Origin: a virus
Virus record (IMG/VR): IMGVR_UViG_3300044641_000973
Span: 1-29,873 of that record
Length of the DNA: 29,873 bases
Reading direction: 5' to 3' (one strand)
Shown here: positions 12,240 to 24,530 of the stretch, piece after piece
Layout: every line of letters begins with the position of its first letter
Position numbering within the stretch: position 1 is the stretch's first letter
The notes under the pieces: generated by a model
What the model saw: only the letters and a program-made list of their open reading frames with translations
Told to the model about the DNA's origin: nothing
The model's database searches: none
Made by a program: the position numbers and the translations under genes

Positions 12240-13196
12240 TTATTTTGATTTTGAAAATTTTACAAATTCTTTAAACTTTTCGTGAGCAGTCAATGCTACA
12301 CTAACTACTTCCTCTTCAGTGTCAACTGCAATACCTTCCTCAATTTGATTTTTTAAGGCTGCAATCATTGAGATAACTGAATTCATGTGTTCCTCTAACA
12401 AAGGTCTCACAATAGCAATAATAGCCTCAGCATCTACAGCTGGATCAATAGCCATAGCTACTTCTTCTGTTTCAGCTTCTTCTGTAGCTTGAGCCTCAGC
12501 ATCAGCTACTTCTTCTTCTACAGCTGGATCTGCTGATAACTCAGCTTCCATCTCTGTAGGTACATCTTTAATCTCAATAACTTCACCGTCTTTTACAACA
12601 TAGATTTTATCCTCGATTAGATGTTCTCCATCAGGTAATTTCATAGTATTTAATTTTAATTGTTCCGATAATTTCATACCTAAAAAGCCTTCTATAGAGT
12701 AACCAACTTGACCTGACTCAACAAGCTCATCATAGTAAGCTCTGTCAGTCACTTGACTTGTTAGCATCAGTGTTCCCTTAGGTACATTAATACCATAAGT
12801 AGTGAATGCTTTGTCAGTTTTTGGACTATCTACTATCCAAGCCTCTAGGATGTAAGCTGGTACCTTTTCAGTTGCATCATGCTCAAGATTAAAGATGTCT
12901 TTATTTTTTAGATTCTGCATGAATTTAGAATGTATCTGCTCAATCACCTCAGCTGAGAATTGTGCGTCATACTCTTCACCATCCTCATCCATTCTATAGA
13001 TATTCATAGGAATCATTGCTGGTGCAACAACTCTCATCTTAACTGAGTCAAATGAATGCCATAACACATGAGAATTGAAAGCCATACCTTTAACCTTAAT
13101 AGCAGGCTTTGATGTGAATGCAATCATTTCTATGCCTAAGTTTTCACCATCAGCATACTCATCCTCTATTGTTATCTTATAGACTGGTCTATCCAT
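12240..13196 (-). CDS. Prohead protease (XkdF/S78-like) fused to scaffold
   Basis: A 318-residue protein. Residues about 1-185 match XkdF-like phage serine proteases: His106 in IFNLEHDA (101-108) with IVDSPKTDKAF downstream, and Ser167 in SGQVGYSIEGFLG (161-173). Residues about 210-255 are very acidic and Ala/Glu-rich, followed by a helical region to a basic end (EKFKEFVKFSKSK), typical of a built-in scaffold. It would guide capsid assembly and then clip itself and perhaps the capsid protein. It is placed directly before the capsid gene with a 1-nt gap. The start is 1 nt after TACAATATAGG and only 44 nt from the divergent plus-strand gene. Confidence 0.85.
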   Translation of the reverse strand: MDRPVYKITIEDEYADGENLGIEMIAFTSKPAIKVKGMAFNSHVLWHSFDSVKMRVVAPAMIPMNIYRMDEDGEEYDAQFSAEVIEQIHSKFMQNLKNKDIFNLEHDATEKVPAYILEAWIVDSPKTDKAFTTYGINVPKGTLMLTSQVTDRAYYDELVESGQVGYSIEGFLGMKLSEQLKLNTMKLPDGEHLIEDKIYVVKDGEVIEIKDVPTEMEAELSADPAVEEEVADAEAQATEEAETEEVAMAIDPAVDAEAIIAIVRPLLEEHMNSVISMIAALKNQIEEGIAVDTEEEVVSVALTAHEKFKEFVKFSKSK

Positions 13197-13197
13197 G

Positions 13198-13208
13198 CCT
13201 ATATTGTA
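13198..13208 (-). promoter_or_regulatory. TACAATATAGG start-site motif, copy 2
   Basis: Exact TACAATATAGG on the minus strand, 1 nt before the ATG of the protease/scaffold gene. Since the next genes upstream are on the opposite strand, a minus-strand promoter must lie here or inside the plus-strand gene. This supports reading the motif as a promoter. Confidence 0.65.
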
Positions 13209-13216
13209 AAAAGTAT

Positions 13217-13224
13217 TATATTTG
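13217..13224 (+). promoter_or_regulatory. -7 element TATATTTG for the plus-strand pair
   Basis: TATATTTG matches the -7 consensus TAnnTTTG and lies 16 nt before the plus-strand ATG at 13241. The expected -33 TTG at the 19-nt distance (13195-13197) reads ATG, so the promoter may be weak or partly inactivated. It lies within the 44-base divergent gap shared with the protease/scaffold gene. Confidence 0.45.
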
Positions 13225-13240
13225 TTAAAAATTAAAATCT

Positions 13241-13786
13241 ATGGTAAATATTTTAGGCATTGAAGTACCTAACCAATTGAATGAGTTGACAGTACAGCAA
13301 TTTGAAACAATCACCACTATCCACGCTAACACTGAGCTAGATGCTATTGACAAGCATTTGCAAGTGTTTGAATTCTTAGGAGTGCCCACAATAAAATGGG
13401 ATGATGTGGAGATTGAGGAGTTCAAAGAGATTGTGAAATCTTTCAATGACTTATCAGGAAAGCCTGAGCTAGTTAACACACTAGAGATAGATGGCTACAC
13501 TTATACTGCATTTGAGGATAAGTTCAAACTATCTGTAAAGGACACTAAGCACATTGAGAAGATTATGCACTCTAAACATAAAGGATATATCTCTGAGTTA
13601 TTAGCTGTTTTATTCAAGCGTACTGATCTAACTAAGGTAGAGCACTACTCAGATGCACACATCAAGCTGAAAGCAAAGTTGATCAGAGAATTGAAAGCTG
13701 AAATAGCTGTGCCATACCTTGTAGAGATTGGTCAGAAATTATCTAAACACATACCTAAGGATGCACCTACCGAAATCTTGGAGTGA
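13241..13786 (+). CDS. Tail assembly chaperone-like protein, paralog A (plus strand)
   Basis: A 181-residue protein, one of only two genes on the plus strand. It begins MVNILGIEVPNQLNELTVQQ and is helical and charged throughout. Its first 75 residues share a layout with the following gene: [VL]P-x4-E-[LI]-x-V-x-QF at the start, then an acidic (D/E)(V/I)EE(F/V) stretch at about 57-62. Together with the overlap with the next gene, this resembles the paired tail assembly chaperones (G/GT type) found before tape measure genes. The assignment is from pattern and context. Both genes are flipped relative to the tail block. Confidence 0.6.
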   Translation: MVNILGIEVPNQLNELTVQQFETITTIHANTELDAIDKHLQVFEFLGVPTIKWDDVEIEEFKEIVKSFNDLSGKPELVNTLEIDGYTYTAFEDKFKLSVKDTKHIEKIMHSKHKGYISELLAVLFKRTDLTKVEHYSDAHIKLKAKLIRELKAEIAVPYLVEIGQKLSKHIPKDAPTEILE

Positions 13787-14492
13787 GATAGATGTTCTAC
13801 AGTTCAAAGAGATTAGAGAGCTGTACACTATACCTGAGGTCTTCAATAGAGAGATTGAGATTCTTGCTATACTAGCTGATGTCAGTTCAGAAGAGCTTGA
13901 AGACCTTGATATAGAAGAGGTGACCGCTATGATTAGTCAGATTAAGTTCGTGAACTCTGAGCCATCTAAACAATACAAGCACCAACTTGATGACTACCAC
14001 TTCAAGTCATTAGATAAGTTGACTGTAGGTGAGTACATTGACTTAGAACACTACTTCTCAAAGGACTACAATCAAAACATTGGTCACATTGCATCCATTC
14101 TTTATAGACAAAAGTCAGTCAATCAGTGGAATGTTACTGTATTTGAGCCTTATGACTTCTCTCCTAGAGTTAGATATGAGTTGTTTGATGAGTATTGTAT
14201 CAATGACATCTATGGAATAATTCCTGAGTTCATAGCTTTTAGAGAAAACTTCATGGACACCTATGGAAATCTATTCCACGATGACAATGGAGAAGAGGAT
14301 GAGGATGAAAGACCTACCAACTCTCAAGAGTCCAAAGACTTACAGCTTAAAAAGAGTGAAATCAAATGGGGATGGGAGAGACTAATCTACTCCCTATGCA
14401 ATGAAGACTTAACTAAGTTTGAAGATGTCACAAATCTACCACTTATTATGACCTTTAATATGTTAGCCATGAAGAAAGAATTAAACATCTAA
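13761..14492 (+). CDS. Tail assembly chaperone-like protein, paralog B (plus strand)
   Basis: A 243-residue protein starting at the ATG at 13761 (MHLPKSWSEIDVLQFKEIRE); an upstream TTG frame to 13728 has no typical start. LPKSWSEI-x-VLQF is a pattern I associate with Bacteroidota phage tail chaperone genes. It overlaps paralog A by 26 nt in the +1 frame, and reading +1 at the UGA stop of A (skipping one base) would join the two proteins. Its N-terminus is paralogous to A. The C-terminal part is acidic (DDNGEEDEDE) then helical. The 3' end overlaps the convergent gene at 14481-14492. Confidence 0.6.
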   Translation: MHLPKSWSEIDVLQFKEIRELYTIPEVFNREIEILAILADVSSEELEDLDIEEVTAMISQIKFVNSEPSKQYKHQLDDYHFKSLDKLTVGEYIDLEHYFSKDYNQNIGHIASILYRQKSVNQWNVTVFEPYDFSPRVRYELFDEYCINDIYGIIPEFIAFRENFMDTYGNLFHDDNGEEDEDERPTNSQESKDLQLKKSEIKWGWERLIYSLCNEDLTKFEDVTNLPLIMTFNMLAMKKELNI

Positions 14493-14930
14493 TGGATAGC
14501 CTACTTTAAATCCTTCAGGTGGATCAAGAGCTTCAAATGTGTATGTAATTCTTTGATTCTTTTCAAGTATCTCAGCCACTTTAAGCATAGGATAACGCTT
14601 AGTCAACCATTCTGTGTACTGAGAGTATATCTCTGCTGTGATTCCTGAGTTATTAAGCTCATTTGTAAACTGGTTGACATAGTCTCTAGGAGTAATTACT
14701 CCACCATTCCATAAGAAAGCACCATTGTTAAGGAATATAAAATAGTACATAGCAATAATTTGTATCTCTAACTTCTCAAAGCTGGTAATCTTAGCATTGA
14801 TTCTGATAGATTCTACCAATGTACCTTGACCAGCTACTATATCATTCCTAAGTATTCTCTTAAGGATGTTAGCCATCCTTCTCCTAGTCTTATAGAGCAC
14901 ATTAAACTCTCCGTTGTTAGCGTATGCCAT
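14481..14930 (-). CDS. Hypothetical structural protein (149 aa)
   Basis: A 149-residue protein of the type MAYANNGEFNVLYKTRRRMANILKRI (read up to the Arg-rich helix), seen near the tail genes of Bacteroidota phages, with MYYFIFLNNGAFLWNGGVIT around residues 61-80 and QYTEWLTKRYPML near residue 105. It has no membrane segment; the aromatic centre should form strands. A tail or adsorption-apparatus protein is inferred from the surrounding genes. Its last 12 nt overlap the end of the convergent plus-strand gene, with no terminator between them. Confidence 0.6.
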   Translation of the reverse strand: MAYANNGEFNVLYKTRRRMANILKRILRNDIVAGQGTLVESIRINAKITSFEKLEIQIIAMYYFIFLNNGAFLWNGGVITPRDYVNQFTNELNNSGITAEIYSQYTEWLTKRYPMLKVAEILEKNQRITYTFEALDPPEGFKVGYPLDV

Positions 14931-16708: not shown

Positions 16709-18013
16709 TTATAAGATAGGATTGACCTCAAACGCTTCAAATGGACTACCTTCTTCGATTGTGTAAGTTCCGAAAGGGCAAGGGGTGTCTTCGGAAAGGG
16801 TTGCTTGTAATTCTCCACAATCACAAGGTGTTGTTGTAACTGAACCTAAATCTTCACCGTTTACAAATGACCAATTATCAGAGATTGGAGGGTTAATAAA
16901 TGGTGATTTAGGTAGTATATAAACAGTGCCATCCAAAGGTGTTAATAAGTTCTCATTAAAAATTAAATGCCAAGACTCTCCATCTGAAAAAGGTGAATCT
17001 ACAAAATAAATAGCATAATCAACACCGTTAGTAATTGGATTAAATCCTTTTATGTAAGTATTTTGACCTTCAAATATCCCAACTTTTAAAAGTTCAACTG
17101 TAGTTTCTCCGTAATTTACTGAAATACACTCAATTGATTGTGTTGTAACAGTTGTTGAGATTACTTCATAACCTTCTAATAAAGATGTCCAAGTTATAAA
17201 ATCTGTTGATTCTGCTACATTTACACTACCATTTACACTTCTTTGAATCCACTTTGTACCGTCAAAAAATACAGTACTTATAACAGCAGATTCTCCTGTA
17301 TTGTTTTGATTTATATATAAATAAACAGATTCCCCATTGTATTCATCAACTTTAACTGCAACGTTTGTAGATTCAACCCCTAAGTATGATGAAACATTAA
17401 CCACAACTTCTTTTTCACAACTTGAATTTACAAACCATTCTTCACCGTCTTTCTCAATTTCATATCCATCAAAATAATAATTTCCATCTTCTTCTTTCTC
17501 TACCTCCACCGTTACAGGCTCTTCACCTTCTAAGGTGTAGGTAACTGATATAGTGTCACAACCTACCACTACTGGCAACTTAAGAGGGACTTGACAATTA
17601 GTCCAATTACTGATGTCAACATCTAGATTCATTACCCACCCCGCTGCATAATCTAGTAGTTGGTTGTTCAATGGAGTGATAGACGGTGAGCCAACGATAT
17701 CAAAGCTATAATCATTACTAAAATTAAAATAGTTGATTAAGTCTACCAATATCTGATGGCAGTCTGATAATATCACTGTGATGTTAGCTCTATCCTTCTG
17801 AATGATATCTAAACAATATACTTCTAAGCTGATAGTGTTCACATCCATTGTAGTAGATGCCACAATTGGAGTGATAAACACCAAAGGATATCTCTCATCC
17901 TTAGTGGCAAAGTTAGGAAGTTGCTCATTGAAGTCACTACCTACTTTCTTAACTTGTAGGTGATCATTGTAAAATGCTTCAATCTTGTTTATTAGTGCTT
18001 GATAACTTGTCAT
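16709..18013 (-). CDS. Tail terminator-like protein fused to a surface domain
   Basis: A 434-residue protein. Residues about 1-140 (MTSYQALINKIEAFYNDHLQ ... LDYAAGWVMNLDVDISNW) match the tail terminator/completion-type protein of Bacteroidota phages, which normally ends there at about 140-150 residues. Here about 290 more residues follow: strand-rich, Glu/Val repeats (EGEEPVTVEVEKEEDGNYYF), an FFDGTKWIQRSVNG region and a Cys-rich end (CDCGELQATLSEDTPCPFGT). The addition looks like a surface or host-binding domain. An ATGA overlap with the tape measure stop couples expression. Function of the extra region is inferred. Confidence 0.7.
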   Translation of the reverse strand: MTSYQALINKIEAFYNDHLQVKKVGSDFNEQLPNFATKDERYPLVFITPIVASTTMDVNTISLEVYCLDIIQKDRANITVILSDCHQILVDLINYFNFSNDYSFDIVGSPSITPLNNQLLDYAAGWVMNLDVDISNWTNCQVPLKLPVVVGCDTISVTYTLEGEEPVTVEVEKEEDGNYYFDGYEIEKDGEEWFVNSSCEKEVVVNVSSYLGVESTNVAVKVDEYNGESVYLYINQNNTGESAVISTVFFDGTKWIQRSVNGSVNVAESTDFITWTSLLEGYEVISTTVTTQSIECISVNYGETTVELLKVGIFEGQNTYIKGFNPITNGVDYAIYFVDSPFSDGESWHLIFNENLLTPLDGTVYILPKSPFINPPISDNWSFVNGEDLGSVTTTPCDCGELQATLSEDTPCPFGTYTIEEGSPFEAFEVNPIL

Positions 18014-20310
18014 AATTCAGCGTTTCTTTGGATGCGTTTAACTCTATTTTGTGTTGATGTCATTTCAGTCTCACTTACTACAGCTGTGACTGTGAAGTTA
18101 GGTGTTGATTGGTCATTAGTATTATTATTGTTACCTACATTGTTAGCATTGTTGCTGTTGCCAAATAAGTTAGGAGTAGCCATTTGTCCAACATTAGACT
18201 GTGTAGTACCACCACTTACTGGGCTTGGAGCATTACCACCACCCTCAAAAGATGTAGCAGAGATAGCTGAGATAGATGCGGCAGTTGCTGCTATAGATGC
18301 GGCTATTCTTATACCTGATGCAATACCTAGAGTGAAGTCAGGTACTGATAAGATTGCTAAGATAGCTTGAGCTCCATTGATTGCAGCCATTGCTAAGTTC
18401 ATTTTCTTTTGTTGCTCAAATTGTTGCTTAAGTATAGCCTCTTCTTGCTTACTACCTTTCTCAACATTTTTCAATTTATTTCTAGTGCTGATTTCTTGAA
18501 CACTAGTGATAGCACTAAGTGCTTGTTTAGTAGTTTCAAAGCCTTCATTGATATTCTTTAAAGTCTTAGCTTGAGCTTCAGCTTCTATCTCTTCAATCTT
18601 TTTAGCTGTAGCCTCTTCTGCTGTGATTTTAGCTTGTCTATATTTTTCTCTGATAGCTTCTTTTTCAAGCTCAGATAAATCTAGGTTGTTAAGCTCAGCA
18701 AGTTTTTGAGCATCTAATGTAGCAAGTTGTTTAGCTAAGAATTCACTATTAAGTCTTACCTCCTCATCCTTGTTCCCTTTAAATCTTTCAAGCTCAAAGC
18801 CAGCCACTAACAATGCTGATTCTTGTCTTAATTTTTCAGCATCAATCTTTAATTTATTACTTTCAAATACCTTAGCTGTCTTTTGCGTTTCAATGCCAGC
18901 TAAGTCTTGTGCTAACTTGTCATTGATGTTCTTAATTTCAGCCGCTGTTAAAGTTTCATTCTGTAGCTTGACACTAGCCTCAGCTTCAAGCTGTGCTATC
19001 CTAGCTGTGAATTTTGCATCATCTGTAGTAGCAAGTAGTAAGTCATTCTCTTTTTTAGCTAGTAACTCTTTGTTAGCAACCGCTAGAGCAGTGTCAGCAT
19101 ACTTCTTGTTGATAGCATCCTCTTGTATTTTCTGAGCTTCTACTAGTGCAGTGCTGTCATTTCCAAATTGCTTAGCGTTAGCTATTCTTTTCTTGTAGTC
19201 TGAGGCTACATCATCAAGCTCTTTTTGTTGCGCGGTCTTCTTGCTGTCAGATACTAACTTAGCCGCTGTTGCAATCTCATCCTCAGATGCCTTATCACCA
19301 GCTATCCTTTTCTTAGTTGCCTCATCACTAGCCGCTTTAGCTTTAGATGCGTTCTCTTTCTCAATTTTTTCAGCATCCTCAGCTTCTTTCTTGTCAGCAT
19401 TGATTTTAGCAATTCGCTTATCACTGTATCCTTGCTTTCTAATCTCAGTCTCTTTTGCAATCTGCTTGTTCAAATCTTCAATGACCTTAGCATCTGCATT
19501 GTCACCTAGTTTCTTTTGATCCGCTAGTGCTTTTTTTGCTGTCTCTTTTCTTATGCCAGCTTCTTTAATCTGAACGTCACTTCTCTCTATCTCTAACTTC
19601 TTAGTGTCTTCACCTCTAGCCTTAGCCTCAGCTATCTCTCTATTCAAATCAGATACTACTCTAGCAGTTCTTTCCTCAGATGACTTAACTACTTTCTCAT
19701 TAGCGGCTAATGTCTTCTCAGCATTCTCTTCGGCTGCATGAGTTGTTAAACCAATTGCATCGGTCATAGCATAGAAACCATCAATCAGTGCATTTATAGG
19801 AGCCATTAATGCCTTAAGCACAATGTCAAGAACACCAAATGACTTCAACACCAATGCTACTACAGCAATGATAGCTACTACAGCGGCTACTATTAAAAAG
19901 ATTGGATTCATTAGGATAGTAAGTCCTAGCTTTATAAATGCCTTGCTCACAATACCTAACACTTCTGTGAAGTCCTTAAATCCTTTGCCAATGTCAGCTG
20001 GATTCAAGCTACCTAAATTCTTTGCGAATACCTTAGCTTTCTCACTTGCACCTTCAAAGTCTAGGGATGCAATATCTCCACTTATGCCAGCGAATGAATT
20101 ACTGATTGATTCAAATTTTGATCCAGCTGTAAAGACTGCCACTTGCTCGTTAGCATCTTTCAGCCTATCAGCAACCTCACCAGCTCTTCTTGCTAACTGC
20201 TCCATTGCCTCAGGGTCGGTAGCGTTAGCAATAGCACCTTTGAGCTCTCTAAGCTCAGCCTTCATAGCTCCAATGCCTGTTATCTTTAATGGTATCTCAA
20301 CTTCATTCAT
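18010..20310 (-). CDS. Tape measure protein
   Basis: A 766-residue protein with the features of a tail tape measure: long helical, Ala/Lys/Glu-rich coiled-coil stretches (about 200-620), one strongly hydrophobic segment (ILMNPIFLIVAAVVAIIAVVALVL, from about residue 132, length near 24 residues, given here in part), and a Gly/Asn-rich end (NNANNVGNNNNTNDQ). It fixes tail length and may be injected with the DNA. At the usual 0.15 nm per residue, a tail of about 115 nm is expected. It overlaps the tail-tip gene by 8 nt and the tail terminator-like gene by 4 nt. Confidence 0.88.
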   Translation of the reverse strand: MNEVEIPLKITGIGAMKAELRELKGAIANATDPEAMEQLARRAGEVADRLKDANEQVAVFTAGSKFESISNSFAGISGDIASLDFEGASEKAKVFAKNLGSLNPADIGKGFKDFTEVLGIVSKAFIKLGLTILMNPIFLIVAAVVAIIAVVALVLKSFGVLDIVLKALMAPINALIDGFYAMTDAIGLTTHAAEENAEKTLAANEKVVKSSEERTARVVSDLNREIAEAKARGEDTKKLEIERSDVQIKEAGIRKETAKKALADQKKLGDNADAKVIEDLNKQIAKETEIRKQGYSDKRIAKINADKKEAEDAEKIEKENASKAKAASDEATKKRIAGDKASEDEIATAAKLVSDSKKTAQQKELDDVASDYKKRIANAKQFGNDSTALVEAQKIQEDAINKKYADTALAVANKELLAKKENDLLLATTDDAKFTARIAQLEAEASVKLQNETLTAAEIKNINDKLAQDLAGIETQKTAKVFESNKLKIDAEKLRQESALLVAGFELERFKGNKDEEVRLNSEFLAKQLATLDAQKLAELNNLDLSELEKEAIREKYRQAKITAEEATAKKIEEIEAEAQAKTLKNINEGFETTKQALSAITSVQEISTRNKLKNVEKGSKQEEAILKQQFEQQKKMNLAMAAINGAQAILAILSVPDFTLGIASGIRIAASIAATAASISAISATSFEGGGNAPSPVSGGTTQSNVGQMATPNLFGNSNNANNVGNNNNTNDQSTPNFTVTAVVSETEMTSTQNRVKRIQRNAEL

Positions 20311-23044
20311 ATACTCTTATTTCTATTGTGTTAAAAGACATTGCTCCATCTATAGACGTGGCAGTTAAATCATAGGTGTTAATTCTTACATCGTCAATTG
20401 TACCCCATAAAAATTCAGTTATAAAAACAGATGCCAATGTATTGTTAAGTGACAAATAAACTTTATCTTGATTAGGAAAAGCTCCTAATAAGTCACCAGA
20501 ATAAAGACCTAGTCCTACCCTTGTCCACACTATGTCACCTATTGTATTCTCTAGTACTGTGACCGTTGGGTCTGCTGTGCCAGTCTGACTGATTGTAGCT
20601 ACATACTTCTTGTAAGGTACTACCACATCACCATTGATTGTGCCAGTGACTGTCAGGTTGCTCACTACCATACCACTCTCACTCAAAGTCTGACCATCAC
20701 CTACTATGATTCCTTTTGTACCAGCTGTGACTACATTTCCCTTGCCAAAGACTTGAGCATTAGCACCAGGTAGAATGACATTGTTATTAAAAGTATTTCT
20801 ACCTACCAATGCATCTACACCTACTCCTATCATGATGTCACCAAATGGTCGTCCTCTGCCTATCTTAAATGGTGCAAGGTCTATCTCAGTGTCAATGCTA
20901 ATTAGCTCTACCTTAGTCAGCTGTCGTTGGTTACCATTGTAGTCTTGAATCTTGTTGATGTTCCACCAAGAGTTGTCGATATAAATCTTATCATTCAGCT
21001 TAAGTGATTGAATATCTACCTCAGTCAAGTCAAACATAGCTATCAGCATCTTGCCTACATTAATCTGATTGACTGTCCTTCTCCAATAGAGATTGTATAG
21101 GTTGTTAGATGTCAGTGATATTGGCTCATAGAAGTAAAAGTCATTAGTGCCAAAGTTGATATCAAAGCTAGGAGTCAAAGCATTGTCGAAATGTCCTAGC
21201 ATTGGATAGCTTGTCAAACCAAATTCACCAGTTGTACCAAAGTCTAAGATGTCAAATGGCTGACATGACTGAACACCACCATCATACAAGATGCGGATGT
21301 TAGTGTTAGGAGCTGAGCCAACTATTGCTGGTACATAAGCTCCAAATGATGTTAAGAAAACTGGTGTTGGTGAGAAGATTAACTCTTGAGTGTCAACATC
21401 TTTCACATACTCATTATCAAAAGTGTACTCTAGCTGTCCATAAATCTCTCTAGTAGCTTGTTCATACATTGTATTAAACTCATCAGTGTCAGGAGCATAA
21501 GTTAGCTTAAGCTTCTTGTTAGTCAAGTCAGGTAAAAAGATTAATTGCTGGTCCTTGTCCTTAGCTAACTTTCTGCTCCAGTCCTTCTCAGCTCCTGAGT
21601 CATAGTACTCATCTCTATGTCTTAGCACTAAGTTGTAAGGATTGTCAACATCTTGCTCAATATACAAGTTGTACATCTGTAGGATAGACTTAACAAAATC
21701 TGACTGCTTAATCTCAGATGGTACATATTGATTGACTGATAGTGTTGAGCCAGTTACTTGAATGTTGTTACTAGGTAAGATTGACATGTTGATAGATGTC
21801 AAGTCTAGGACCACGTTAACTGGTGCTAATGTGTCAGTAGATACTGTGTACCAATTGCCAGTAGTGAATGCAGCATCTGTGTGAAATATCTCAACTCCAG
21901 TATTAAGAATTTGAATATCTGAAACGTTGACATTTGGAGTGCCATTACTAGCTGATGGTATTTGAAGCGTATTTGAGAATGTTAAAATAGTAGTGTTACC
22001 ATTTGGTAGTACTGTAGTGATTCCATTAACTACAGCAGTTGAACCATAGACTATAGGATTATCAAATCCATCTACAGAAACCCTCATAAAAACCTTATAG
22101 TACTTTGCTGGTGTATCTACATAGCAGTCCTCTCCGCTTGTATTCTCTAAAATGATTGAGCCACCAATTGTCAAGTTATAAATGTAATGCTCTCCAGCTG
22201 GTAAACTAGTATTTATTGGTGAAGTATACTCACCATCTGTAGGATTGAATATTGATTGAGTATCTACTATCTCTGTCCATCCTGAGTCAATAGCTTCTTG
22301 AAAAGTTACATTCTGACCAACTGCTTGTACATTTGTAGTAGTCCAGGTGTTTGTAGCCTCTACTAAGAAATCATTGTAATCTTGGTCATTAGTGTCACCA
22401 TTATAAGGAATTAACAGCTTATCAAATCTAGCTGAGGCTATCTCATCCCAAGTGTATGTAAATCCAGCTACAGCGAAGATTCTATCAAAGTAAGTCTTAG
22501 CATAGATGGCTGGCTTAAAGTCATTAGCATTGAAATCATTGCCATTGATATACGGCATCACATACTTATAGCCATCAGCTACAGTGTGACTGAATGACGC
22601 CACTATATCTGTAGAGCTAAATGTATGATCTAAGTCAGAGAAGTCTAAGTCAGTTAATTTAGCATTAGTGATGGCTGTGAAGAATTCTGCTCTTGTATCT
22701 TTGATTAATACCTCATAGCTTACCTCATCCTCAAATCTATTGTTAGTCTGTACCTTGCTAACTGAAACCAATTGTAATAGAGCCTCATCTAATATAGGCA
22801 CACCATTCTGAATGACTTGACACTTTGTTAGTGTATTTAGATTGAATGTACCAGCTTCTATATTGACATCATAGTAGTGGCCTAGTAGGTCATTGTTGTT
22901 TTTAGTCCCGGCAAGAGTGACAGTCTTTGAGAATGTCCCCTTACGAGATGACAAGTCTCTAATGTCACCAATACTGAAAGTGATAGGTAGTGCAAGATTC
23001 TCTGAGACATCAAGCACTCCATTAGGTAGAACTATCTTAACCAT
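20303..23044 (-). CDS. Large tail-tip / baseplate protein (913 aa)
   Basis: A 913-residue protein of the kind that follows or precedes the tape measure in Bacteroidota siphoviruses. It begins MVKIVLPNGVLDVSENLALP, has FSIGDIRDLSSRKGTFSKTV (around 24-43), seen as the conserved start of these tail proteins, then long strand-rich regions and near the C-terminus a short beta-helix-like stretch (GKGNVVTAGTKGIIVGDGQT) ending in a jelly-roll-like domain. It is probably the tail hub or tip protein that contacts the host. It overlaps both neighbours by 8 nt. Gly- and Asn-rich repeats at the end could trimerise. Confidence 0.7.
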   Translation of the reverse strand: MVKIVLPNGVLDVSENLALPITFSIGDIRDLSSRKGTFSKTVTLAGTKNNNDLLGHYYDVNIEAGTFNLNTLTKCQVIQNGVPILDEALLQLVSVSKVQTNNRFEDEVSYEVLIKDTRAEFFTAITNAKLTDLDFSDLDHTFSSTDIVASFSHTVADGYKYVMPYINGNDFNANDFKPAIYAKTYFDRIFAVAGFTYTWDEIASARFDKLLIPYNGDTNDQDYNDFLVEATNTWTTTNVQAVGQNVTFQEAIDSGWTEIVDTQSIFNPTDGEYTSPINTSLPAGEHYIYNLTIGGSIILENTSGEDCYVDTPAKYYKVFMRVSVDGFDNPIVYGSTAVVNGITTVLPNGNTTILTFSNTLQIPSASNGTPNVNVSDIQILNTGVEIFHTDAAFTTGNWYTVSTDTLAPVNVVLDLTSINMSILPSNNIQVTGSTLSVNQYVPSEIKQSDFVKSILQMYNLYIEQDVDNPYNLVLRHRDEYYDSGAEKDWSRKLAKDKDQQLIFLPDLTNKKLKLTYAPDTDEFNTMYEQATREIYGQLEYTFDNEYVKDVDTQELIFSPTPVFLTSFGAYVPAIVGSAPNTNIRILYDGGVQSCQPFDILDFGTTGEFGLTSYPMLGHFDNALTPSFDINFGTNDFYFYEPISLTSNNLYNLYWRRTVNQINVGKMLIAMFDLTEVDIQSLKLNDKIYIDNSWWNINKIQDYNGNQRQLTKVELISIDTEIDLAPFKIGRGRPFGDIMIGVGVDALVGRNTFNNNVILPGANAQVFGKGNVVTAGTKGIIVGDGQTLSESGMVVSNLTVTGTINGDVVVPYKKYVATISQTGTADPTVTVLENTIGDIVWTRVGLGLYSGDLLGAFPNQDKVYLSLNNTLASVFITEFLWGTIDDVRINTYDLTATSIDGAMSFNTIEIRVYE

Positions 23045-24530
23045 TGATTATGTCGTTGTTACCTATTCTAACTTGAATAGATTGCTTAATTAGATTCTTA
23101 TTGCGTTGCTTAAATACCTCAAATGTGTTAGTGGTCACGTTGCAACTCACATACTCAGTACTCTCAGGAACGTGAATAACACATCCATCCTCATCAAATA
23201 GTACAGCTCCATCCTCTGTGATGTGATATAGCACATTCTTGATGTAAGTCTGTGGTGATGTTAGTAACTGCTGGAAATAATCTCCCTCAGCTTCTGTCAT
23301 AAAGTTGGTAGATAAGTCATAGAGCTTAGTGAGCTCAGTGTTGATGTTGACTGTACCTTGTTCATAACTTTTATACTGCCACTGACCATCTACTACACTA
23401 CCAGGTACATCTTGATTGTAAGTCTGTCTAGTGATGTTGCCTCTCTCGTATGCCTTAAGCTGGAAAGCAAAGCTACTCCATGAGCCTAATCTATCTAAGA
23501 ACACAATGTGACTCTCTGAGATTAACATTCTTCTATCTATGTTTACCTTGTACTTGATTGACTTTTGAGTCTGTGGAGAACCATCAACATACCAAACTTC
23601 ATAGCTAGTAGTATCATTTTTTACCAATGGAGCTGTGCCACTGATAACAGTCAATGATCCATAGTTATTAGGACCAACTGCAACACCTTTGATAGTCTGA
23701 CTACCAGCTACTACCTTAGAGAATAAATCTCCATTGTCATTTTGAAAGTATACCTTACCACCTGGTGCAACTCCAAAGCCACGCATGTTTAACCATAAAT
23801 CTTGACCAGGTGTGCAACTAAATTCTTGAGGCTGGTCTGTTAGCCATTCCTTAGTAGTACCGTCAAGCTCATAGTCAGTCTCATCCCAATATGGGAACTC
23901 AAGCCAAGGGTAAACACCATTGAAGACAAATTTGTCAAGTGTTGATATTATGTCTAAGTCTATAGTCTTTCTCTTATCAGCATACTCAACTACTCCATTG
24001 ATAGTAGCATCTGTTACTCCTGACCATAGAGCATTGATTGTAAAGTTAGTGGTGCCAGTTATAGCTATCACAGTGTGAAGTCCCTCAACACCAGGATTAG
24101 CAACTCCACTATCAGCTTGAGTGATATTCACCTGGTCACCTACTTGAAATGGATGTGTAGCTGTGATGCGTACATTGCCACTATTATCAGTCAGTGATGC
24201 TGTGTAGCTCATGTCAAAGATATACTCTTCTCCAAATTTAACATCATAGCCAAAGTAGCTATTAGACGCATCATAGAAAGTAGTGATTGAAGGATTGAAG
24301 TCAAAGCTCACTGAGTTGCTCAGTAGCTTAGACAAATCTTGCTCACCATAGCCAGTGCCAAATGTAGGTAGTGCCTTGTAGTATCCTATTCTTAGATTAG
24401 TCACTGAGTCAAAGACCTCAAAGATATATCTGAAGCCTGACTTATTCTTGTTAGTTGAGTCAATTATAAACTTGCACTCATTATAAGCTGGTGTGAAGTC
24501 CTGAGGCTGTGCTATGATTGTTTGTGCCAT
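23037..24530 (-). CDS. Tail protein upstream of tail tip (497 aa)
   Basis: A 497-residue strand-rich protein beginning MAQTIIAQPQDFTPAYNECK, a pattern I associate with distal tail proteins of Bacteroidota phages. It includes an inserted domain with HPFQVGDQVNITQADSG (around 127-143), resembling small OB-like or Ig-like inserts of tail proteins. It lies between terminase and the tail tip. Placing distal tail genes right after terminase is unusual. The start is 1 nt after TACAATATAGG. The exact role, distal tail or tail tip, is inferred from position. Confidence 0.6.
   Translation of the reverse strand: MAQTIIAQPQDFTPAYNECKFIIDSTNKNKSGFRYIFEVFDSVTNLRIGYYKALPTFGTGYGEQDLSKLLSNSVSFDFNPSITTFYDASNSYFGYDVKFGEEYIFDMSYTASLTDNSGNVRITATHPFQVGDQVNITQADSGVANPGVEGLHTVIAITGTTNFTINALWSGVTDATINGVVEYADKRKTIDLDIISTLDKFVFNGVYPWLEFPYWDETDYELDGTTKEWLTDQPQEFSCTPGQDLWLNMRGFGVAPGGKVYFQNDNGDLFSKVVAGSQTIKGVAVGPNNYGSLTVISGTAPLVKNDTTSYEVWYVDGSPQTQKSIKYKVNIDRRMLISESHIVFLDRLGSWSSFAFQLKAYERGNITRQTYNQDVPGSVVDGQWQYKSYEQGTVNINTELTKLYDLSTNFMTEAEGDYFQQLLTSPQTYIKNVLYHITEDGAVLFDEDGCVIHVPESTEYVSCNVTTNTFEVFKQRNKNLIKQSIQVRIGNNDIING

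Follow-up and report, generated by a model that had tools for sequence, protein, structure and literature searches.

Two overlapping plus-strand genes of a virus, here called ORF1 and ORF2, are best read as encoding the pair of tail assembly chaperones of a long-tailed phage, each from a gene of its own. ORF1 would deliver the short form and ORF2 the long form, the latter in a single reading frame. The probability of this reading is put at roughly 0.87.

Most long-tailed phages, of course, obtain the short and the long tail chaperone from one gene, by a programmed ribosome slip. Few programmed frameshifts are as widely conserved as this G/GT frameshift, and the reason for its fixed ratio is still argued. 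Here, the same protein pair appears to be produced by slip in one sister lineage and by two genes in the other, which offers a natural comparison. Comparing the two lineages thus makes it possible to test directly whether the slip is needed. The assignment also suggests a function for an uncharacterised superfamily of flavophage proteins (Inhavirus, Duneviridae, Leefvirus). A -1 frameshift, so far unannotated, is likewise suggested for the cultured phages P12024L and P12024S.

The gene pair and its conservation

The window, which is the whole stretch of DNA analysed, is a complete IMG/VR virus record of 29,873 bases. The argument uses the following features:

12240-13196, minus strand: protease gene (Peptidase_S78_2/XkdF), divergent from ORF1
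13197..13240, no strand assigned: divergent intergenic region, 44 nt from protease start to ORF1 start (43-68 nt in relatives)
13217..13224, plus strand: TATATTTG, which fits the -7 element TAnnTTTG of Bacteroidota and precedes the ORF1 start by 24 nt
13241..13786, plus strand: ORF1, putative short tail assembly chaperone (TAC-N-like), 181 aa, ATG start; model pLDDT 88.5; dN/dS 0.02-0.10
13761..13786, plus strand: ORF1/ORF2 overlap, 26 nt, +1 frame; constrained as an ORF2 reading (MxLPKSW fixed, ORF1 tail variable)
13761..14492, plus strand: ORF2, putative long tail assembly chaperone (TAC-NC-like), starting at the conserved ATG 13761 and 243 aa in length
13761..14228, plus strand: ORF2 N domain, residues ~1-156, with homology to ORF1 as well as to the sister-phage 0-frame product
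14229..14486, plus strand: ORF2 C domain, residues 157-242 (FRENF...LF...KWGWERLIYSL), lacking in ORF1; in sister phages encoded by the -1 frame only
14481..14492, no strand assigned: overlap of ORF2 with the convergent gene, 12 nt (4-12 nt in relatives)
14481-14930, minus strand: convergent gene, neck/tail-completion-like by a weak match (P 2.4e-4)
18010..20310, minus strand: candidate tape measure protein gene, the presumed client; profile match to P12024L_50 (E 1e-5; P 9.8e-16)

The ORF2 frame is open from TTG 13728, its conserved start being ATG 13761. The remaining substantial ORFs in the window all lie on the minus strand. An earlier reading, made from the sequence only, had set the pair alone on the plus strand, 44 bases from the protease gene, with a 12-base convergent overlap at its far end and a 26-base internal overlap that changes frame by +1 at the junction GAG TGA G. 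Every coordinate checks, and the junction is as it was given. The convergent gene, which that reading took to encode a fibre, is rather probably neck/tail-completion-like, on the weak match listed above.

Scans of viral contigs with each protein gave 131 loci, with further loci coming from later scans. The order protease (minus), ORF1 (plus), ORF2 (plus), gene 14481 (minus) is found in every locus that has the relevant flanks, some being without a detectable homologue of gene 14481. This flipped, overlapping layout reaches relatives at ~38-47% identity (the L120 group, L127 and L133), and the +1 relation of the two frames is kept in 126 of 128 loci. Measured against the window, dN/dS is 0.02-0.13 across both ORFs, a sign of strong purifying selection. 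Judged by such sequence comparison, ORF1 and ORF2 are real genes that always occur together.

Their N-termini had been proposed to be paralogous, and this is borne out. By BLASTP alone the similarity is weak (E 0.18; ~18% identity), yet it is collinear along 128 residues. Profile-profile comparison of the two families gives P 4.8e-7 over 117 columns, where unrelated family pairs run through the same pipeline gave P above 0.01. A search of the ORFs of three records with the ORF2 profile also brings up L133's ORF1 homologue (E 3e-6).

The phages of this family are freshwater phages. Their host probably belongs to the Bacteroidota, because distant relatives of the terminase are found in Bacteroidota phages and because the putative promoter is of the Bacteroidota type.

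The long form and the tail block in sister phages

The long-form assignment comes from a sister set of 63 loci, of the type of Nonlabens phage P12024L. All 63 sister genes carry a slip run, (G/C/A/T)TTTTTTTTTA(T/C), inside FFYHLGNDL. After the run, the -1 frame is open and conserved (LSFRxRL...LF...WGWY.SIYALAKGDIT.FE.VTKL). The sister -1 fusion aligns to ORF2 residues 2-242 (221 columns, P 1.1e-20); with the 0-frame product alone, the match ends at ORF2 residue 158. The ORF2 profile (A2), set against the sister -1-frame C domain by itself, aligns through residues 157-242 (P 7.2e-13, 74 columns). Among close sister sequences, variation beyond the slip falls at the third position of the -1 frame; none falls there before it.

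Because the slip run is invariant, the -1 frame behind it open and conserved, the fusion matched to ORF2 from end to end, and the variation placed at third positions, the sisters very likely use -1 frameshifting on the U8-9 run to obtain both a short and a long chaperone. The long form of lambda also arises by -1 frameshifting (PMC5009743). In the phage records themselves, the signature stands without annotation at P12024L genes 40 and 41 (L154:23946-24640) and likewise in L160-L221; P12024L_41 is annotated as a separate gene of 55 aa. P12024L_40 follows the terminase gene, on the same strand.

This, in turn, bears on the window. Since the sister -1 fusion matches ORF2 throughout, ORF2 would be the long form in one frame, and ORF1 a separate short form. 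ORF1 would consist of the N domain only, and ORF2 of a paralogous N domain joined in frame to the C domain. The window therefore encodes a short product as well as a long one, in which the shared N domain is extended by a C domain. The earlier reading had looked to a fusion of ORF1 and ORF2 for the long form; none is needed, as ORF2 holds all of it. Programmed frameshifting is not how this long form arises, given its one frame and its own ATG. From its sequence, the pair is thus a variant and not a frameshift system of the gpG/gpGT type; what is found is the split into a short gene and a long gene, the arrangement of T4-like phages.

It might be argued that both proteins are chaperones, but that ORF2 was acquired independently, that ORF1 alone performs both functions, and that the short/long split is a coincidence. 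The low identity of the two proteins, ~18%, would allow this. However, ORF1 and ORF2 are always adjacent and co-conserved, their N domains are homologous to each other and both match the sister N domain, and of the two only ORF2 has the sister C domain. Independent acquisition is accordingly held to be very improbable.

The sister tail block has a fixed order: TerL, chaperone, p42, neck-like gene, g45, BACON, tape measure. Its homologues in the window are the N-terminal part of 16709-18013 (p42), 23037-24530 (g45), 20303-23044 (BACON-type), 18010-20310 (tape measure) and, weakly, 14481-14930 (neck gene). P12024L_50 matches a tape measure PHROG (5.6e-12), and relatives of 18010-20310 also match tape measure PHROGs (6.5e-5, 2.1e-4).

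Two size differences were seen among these genes. The tape measure candidate has 766 aa from its ATG, and the open frames of several relatives reach ~860 aa; the gap may come from a differing tail length or from a start elsewhere. The product of 16709-18013 has 434 aa, of which the first 136 match the 150-aa sister p42 (P 1.3e-10); ~300 additional residues follow them.

The sister chaperone homologue shares the strand of the tape measure gene and precedes it by several genes. In the window, the pair lies on the far side of the tape measure gene and is flipped, so that the usual upstream position is not the one observed. Comparing the two gene orders, the pair is moved and flipped relative to the sister tail block. 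That it does not adjoin the tape measure gene counts against the chaperone reading. More distant relatives, in siphoviruses such as Ingeline, stand upstream of an annotated tape measure gene.

Searches with the proteins themselves delivered no function from Pfam, PHROG or NCBIfam for either ORF, and no tblastn match to annotated phages for either. When the ORF1 family and the sister family were searched by sequence against solved structures, nothing credible came up, and profile comparison with HK97 gp13 and lambda G showed no similarity (a weak test for lambda G, which was a single sequence). Matches of sister members to PHROG 166, a "tail protein," were left unused, being weak (E 0.005-0.19) and in two registers.

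AlphaFold2 modelled ORF1 at pLDDT 88.5 and ORF2 moderately, at 69.3, with the C-terminal part below 50. The two models match largely the same uncharacterised phage proteins, one of them from Nonlabens phage P12024S; the ORF2 model additionally matches a protein of Flavobacterium phage 6H. Foldseek against the PDB returned nothing significant. Chaperones of this type are expected to have a helical spiral fold like that of HK97 gp13 (2ob9). The best alignment of the ORF1 model to a solved structure is to this HK97 tail assembly chaperone (2ob9_B; Z 2.8, 65 residues, 3.7 A), but the match is weak and within noise.

The want of a sequence link to known chaperones, and the neck-like genes that adjoin the sister gene, would suit another view. 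On this view, both would belong to the structure or the connector of the neck or tail tip, and the sister slip run would yield a minor structural variant. However, a helical protein that has a short form and also a long form made by -1 frameshifting, and whose gene precedes that of the tape measure within the tail block, bears the classical signature of a chaperone (PMC5009743). The structural view is considered unlikely. The idea of tail chaperones with a short/long, G/GT-like logic, which the sequence-only reading had raised, is well supported by the sister fusion match and the tail-block position of the sister gene, and a role in tail assembly is what we infer from them.

Initiation, expression and proposed mechanism

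Relative to the ORF1 stop, the ORF2 ATG is at -23, or at -35 in the diverged clade, and none of the overlapping junctions that were read lacks it. The near clade has 23 distinct overlaps with 58 variant cells, of which 37 sit at third positions of ORF2 codons, equivalent to first positions of ORF1. In these overlaps, the ORF2 N-terminus MxLPKSW shows two single exceptions, at one position, and the ORF1 tail takes 20 forms. In the 30 nt upstream of ATG 13761, variation tracks ORF1 third positions and only the ORF1 frame is constrained; therefore, no ORF2-frame coding is apparent there.

Two loci from two metagenomes (L009:1328-2616 and L010:3776-5064) carry a perfect 37-nt tandem duplication in the overlap. 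In these, ORF1 ends early, and the ORF2 ATG falls 17 nt past the ORF1 stop, in a different frame, with ORF2 intact. The duplication alters the frame relation and leaves both genes usable; there is a small chance that it is an assembly artefact.

Because MxLPKSW is fixed, because the ORF2 frame is unconstrained before the ATG, and because ORF2 is intact in the two duplicated loci, this pattern of variation argues for a separate initiation of ORF2 at ATG 13761 and against a +1 fusion.

The sequence-only reading had proposed the opposite: that the ribosome skips one base at GAG UGA G, by a +1 shift like that of RF2, so that an ORF1-ORF2 fusion is the long chaperone. The +1 relation in 126 of 128 loci speaks for this, as does GAG/GAA TGA GAT, which is common in the near clade. 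However, the overlap is constrained as precisely the ORF2 N-terminus that a fusion would drop, and the product would carry two N domains. The codon and stop that end ORF1 differ by clade (GAG/GAA-TGA, GGT/GCT-TAA, GCA-TAA), and the frame is broken in the duplicated loci, whose ORF2 is intact. Further, a P-site tRNA-Glu would presumably not re-pair at AGU. The cassette of an RF2-type shift (a slip-prone codon, UGA C, an upstream Shine-Dalgarno stimulator) is not seen at GAG UGA G; the base 3' of UGA is C at the RF2 site (PMC5009743) and G here. Within the last 150 nt of ORF1 there is no XXXYYYZ heptamer of the form scanned, and across clades no conserved slip site at the junction. A +1 fusion thus appears scarcely credible, and separate initiation of ORF2 is preferred.

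Upstream of ORF1, 27 of the 28 distinct intergenic sequences carry the motif of the TATATTTG site between -22 and -24, the diverged L120-type clade included. TAnnTTTG is the -7 consensus of Bacteroidota, at -12 to -5 (PMC6847099, PMC9723704). No -33 TTTG box was seen upstream of ORF1. Such 8-mers occur 50 times in the window, against 36 expected, so that position and conservation must carry the promoter argument. A candidate plus-strand start would lie near 13229, giving a leader of ~12 nt. Folding predictions over the same span give less stable structure around the ORF1 start (mean -3.2 kcal/mol) than around the ORF2 start (-5.3), which would be consistent with more ORF1 than ORF2 being made. 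At the convergent ends of ORF2 and gene 14481, neither a terminator-like site nor unusual structure was found. The conserved plus-strand motif and the missing terminator-like site both bear on the antisense transcription through the protease and fibre genes that the sequence-only reading expected, although the convergent gene is probably no fibre gene.

By analogy with lambda gpG/gpGT, both forms would coat the tape measure protein, the major tail protein would be recruited by the ORF2 C domain, and both chaperones would depart before the tail is completed. The short:long ratio, and with it the stoichiometry, would be set by translation initiation, at the promoter-proximal ORF1 start and at the internal, overlapping ORF2 start, rather than by the frequency of a slip.

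As to history, it is about an even wager that one superfamily exchanged -1 frameshifting for gene duplication, the pair then moving to the other strand under a divergent promoter of its own, which would uncouple chaperone dose and timing from the tape measure operon. The change may have run from slip to two genes or from two genes to slip; either direction is possible because Duneviridae relatives have a single in-frame gene.

Comparison with known systems

The P12024L genes 40/41 and their relatives (Inhavirus type) are homologous to the window pair over the entire long form. Unlike the pair, they form a single locus, on the strand of its neighbours, with the long form apparently made by -1 slip on U8-9.

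The Duneviridae proteins Ingeline2_46 and laban6-1 gp017 belong to the same superfamily (A3 against this group P 2.9e-9; A2 P 1e-6), and their genes lie upstream of the tape measure gene. Each is one in-frame gene of ~300 aa; neither a separate short gene nor a conserved slip run was seen in them. The homologue in Flavobacterium phage 6H (L155:10352-10927) is cut to 191 aa, with the remainder in another frame. A programmed frameshift was considered for it and rejected; close relatives have an intact 293-aa frame, and the break is a mutation or a sequencing error. A further member of the superfamily (L159:6854-7678; MZ447863, a Microcystis phage) lies upstream of a tape-measure-like gene. That record is listed under a cyanobacterial host; the superfamily is otherwise one of flavophages.

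Lambda gpG/gpGT and HK97 gp13/gp14 resemble the window pair in their shared N domain and in the C domain of the long form. Unlike it, they use a -1 frameshift, and their genes lie close upstream of the tape measure gene; sequence similarity to the pair is not detectable.

The nearest arrangement is that of T4-like phages, where, according to Vladimirov, Gautam and Davidson (2022), as cited in PMC10885494, a short chaperone gene accompanies a fused, in-frame long gene, with no frameshift. The frameshift is common but not universal among tail chaperones, some T4-like phages being without it (PMC10885494). The window pair likewise has a short-form gene and an in-frame long-form gene; it differs in its tandem order with a 26-nt overlap, its strand opposite to the other genes, its siphovirus-type lineage and its probable Bacteroidota host, and the likeness drawn here is one of arrangement. 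Split short and long chaperone genes were known before; the window adds a flipped, overlapping tandem pair beside sisters that appear to use the slip.
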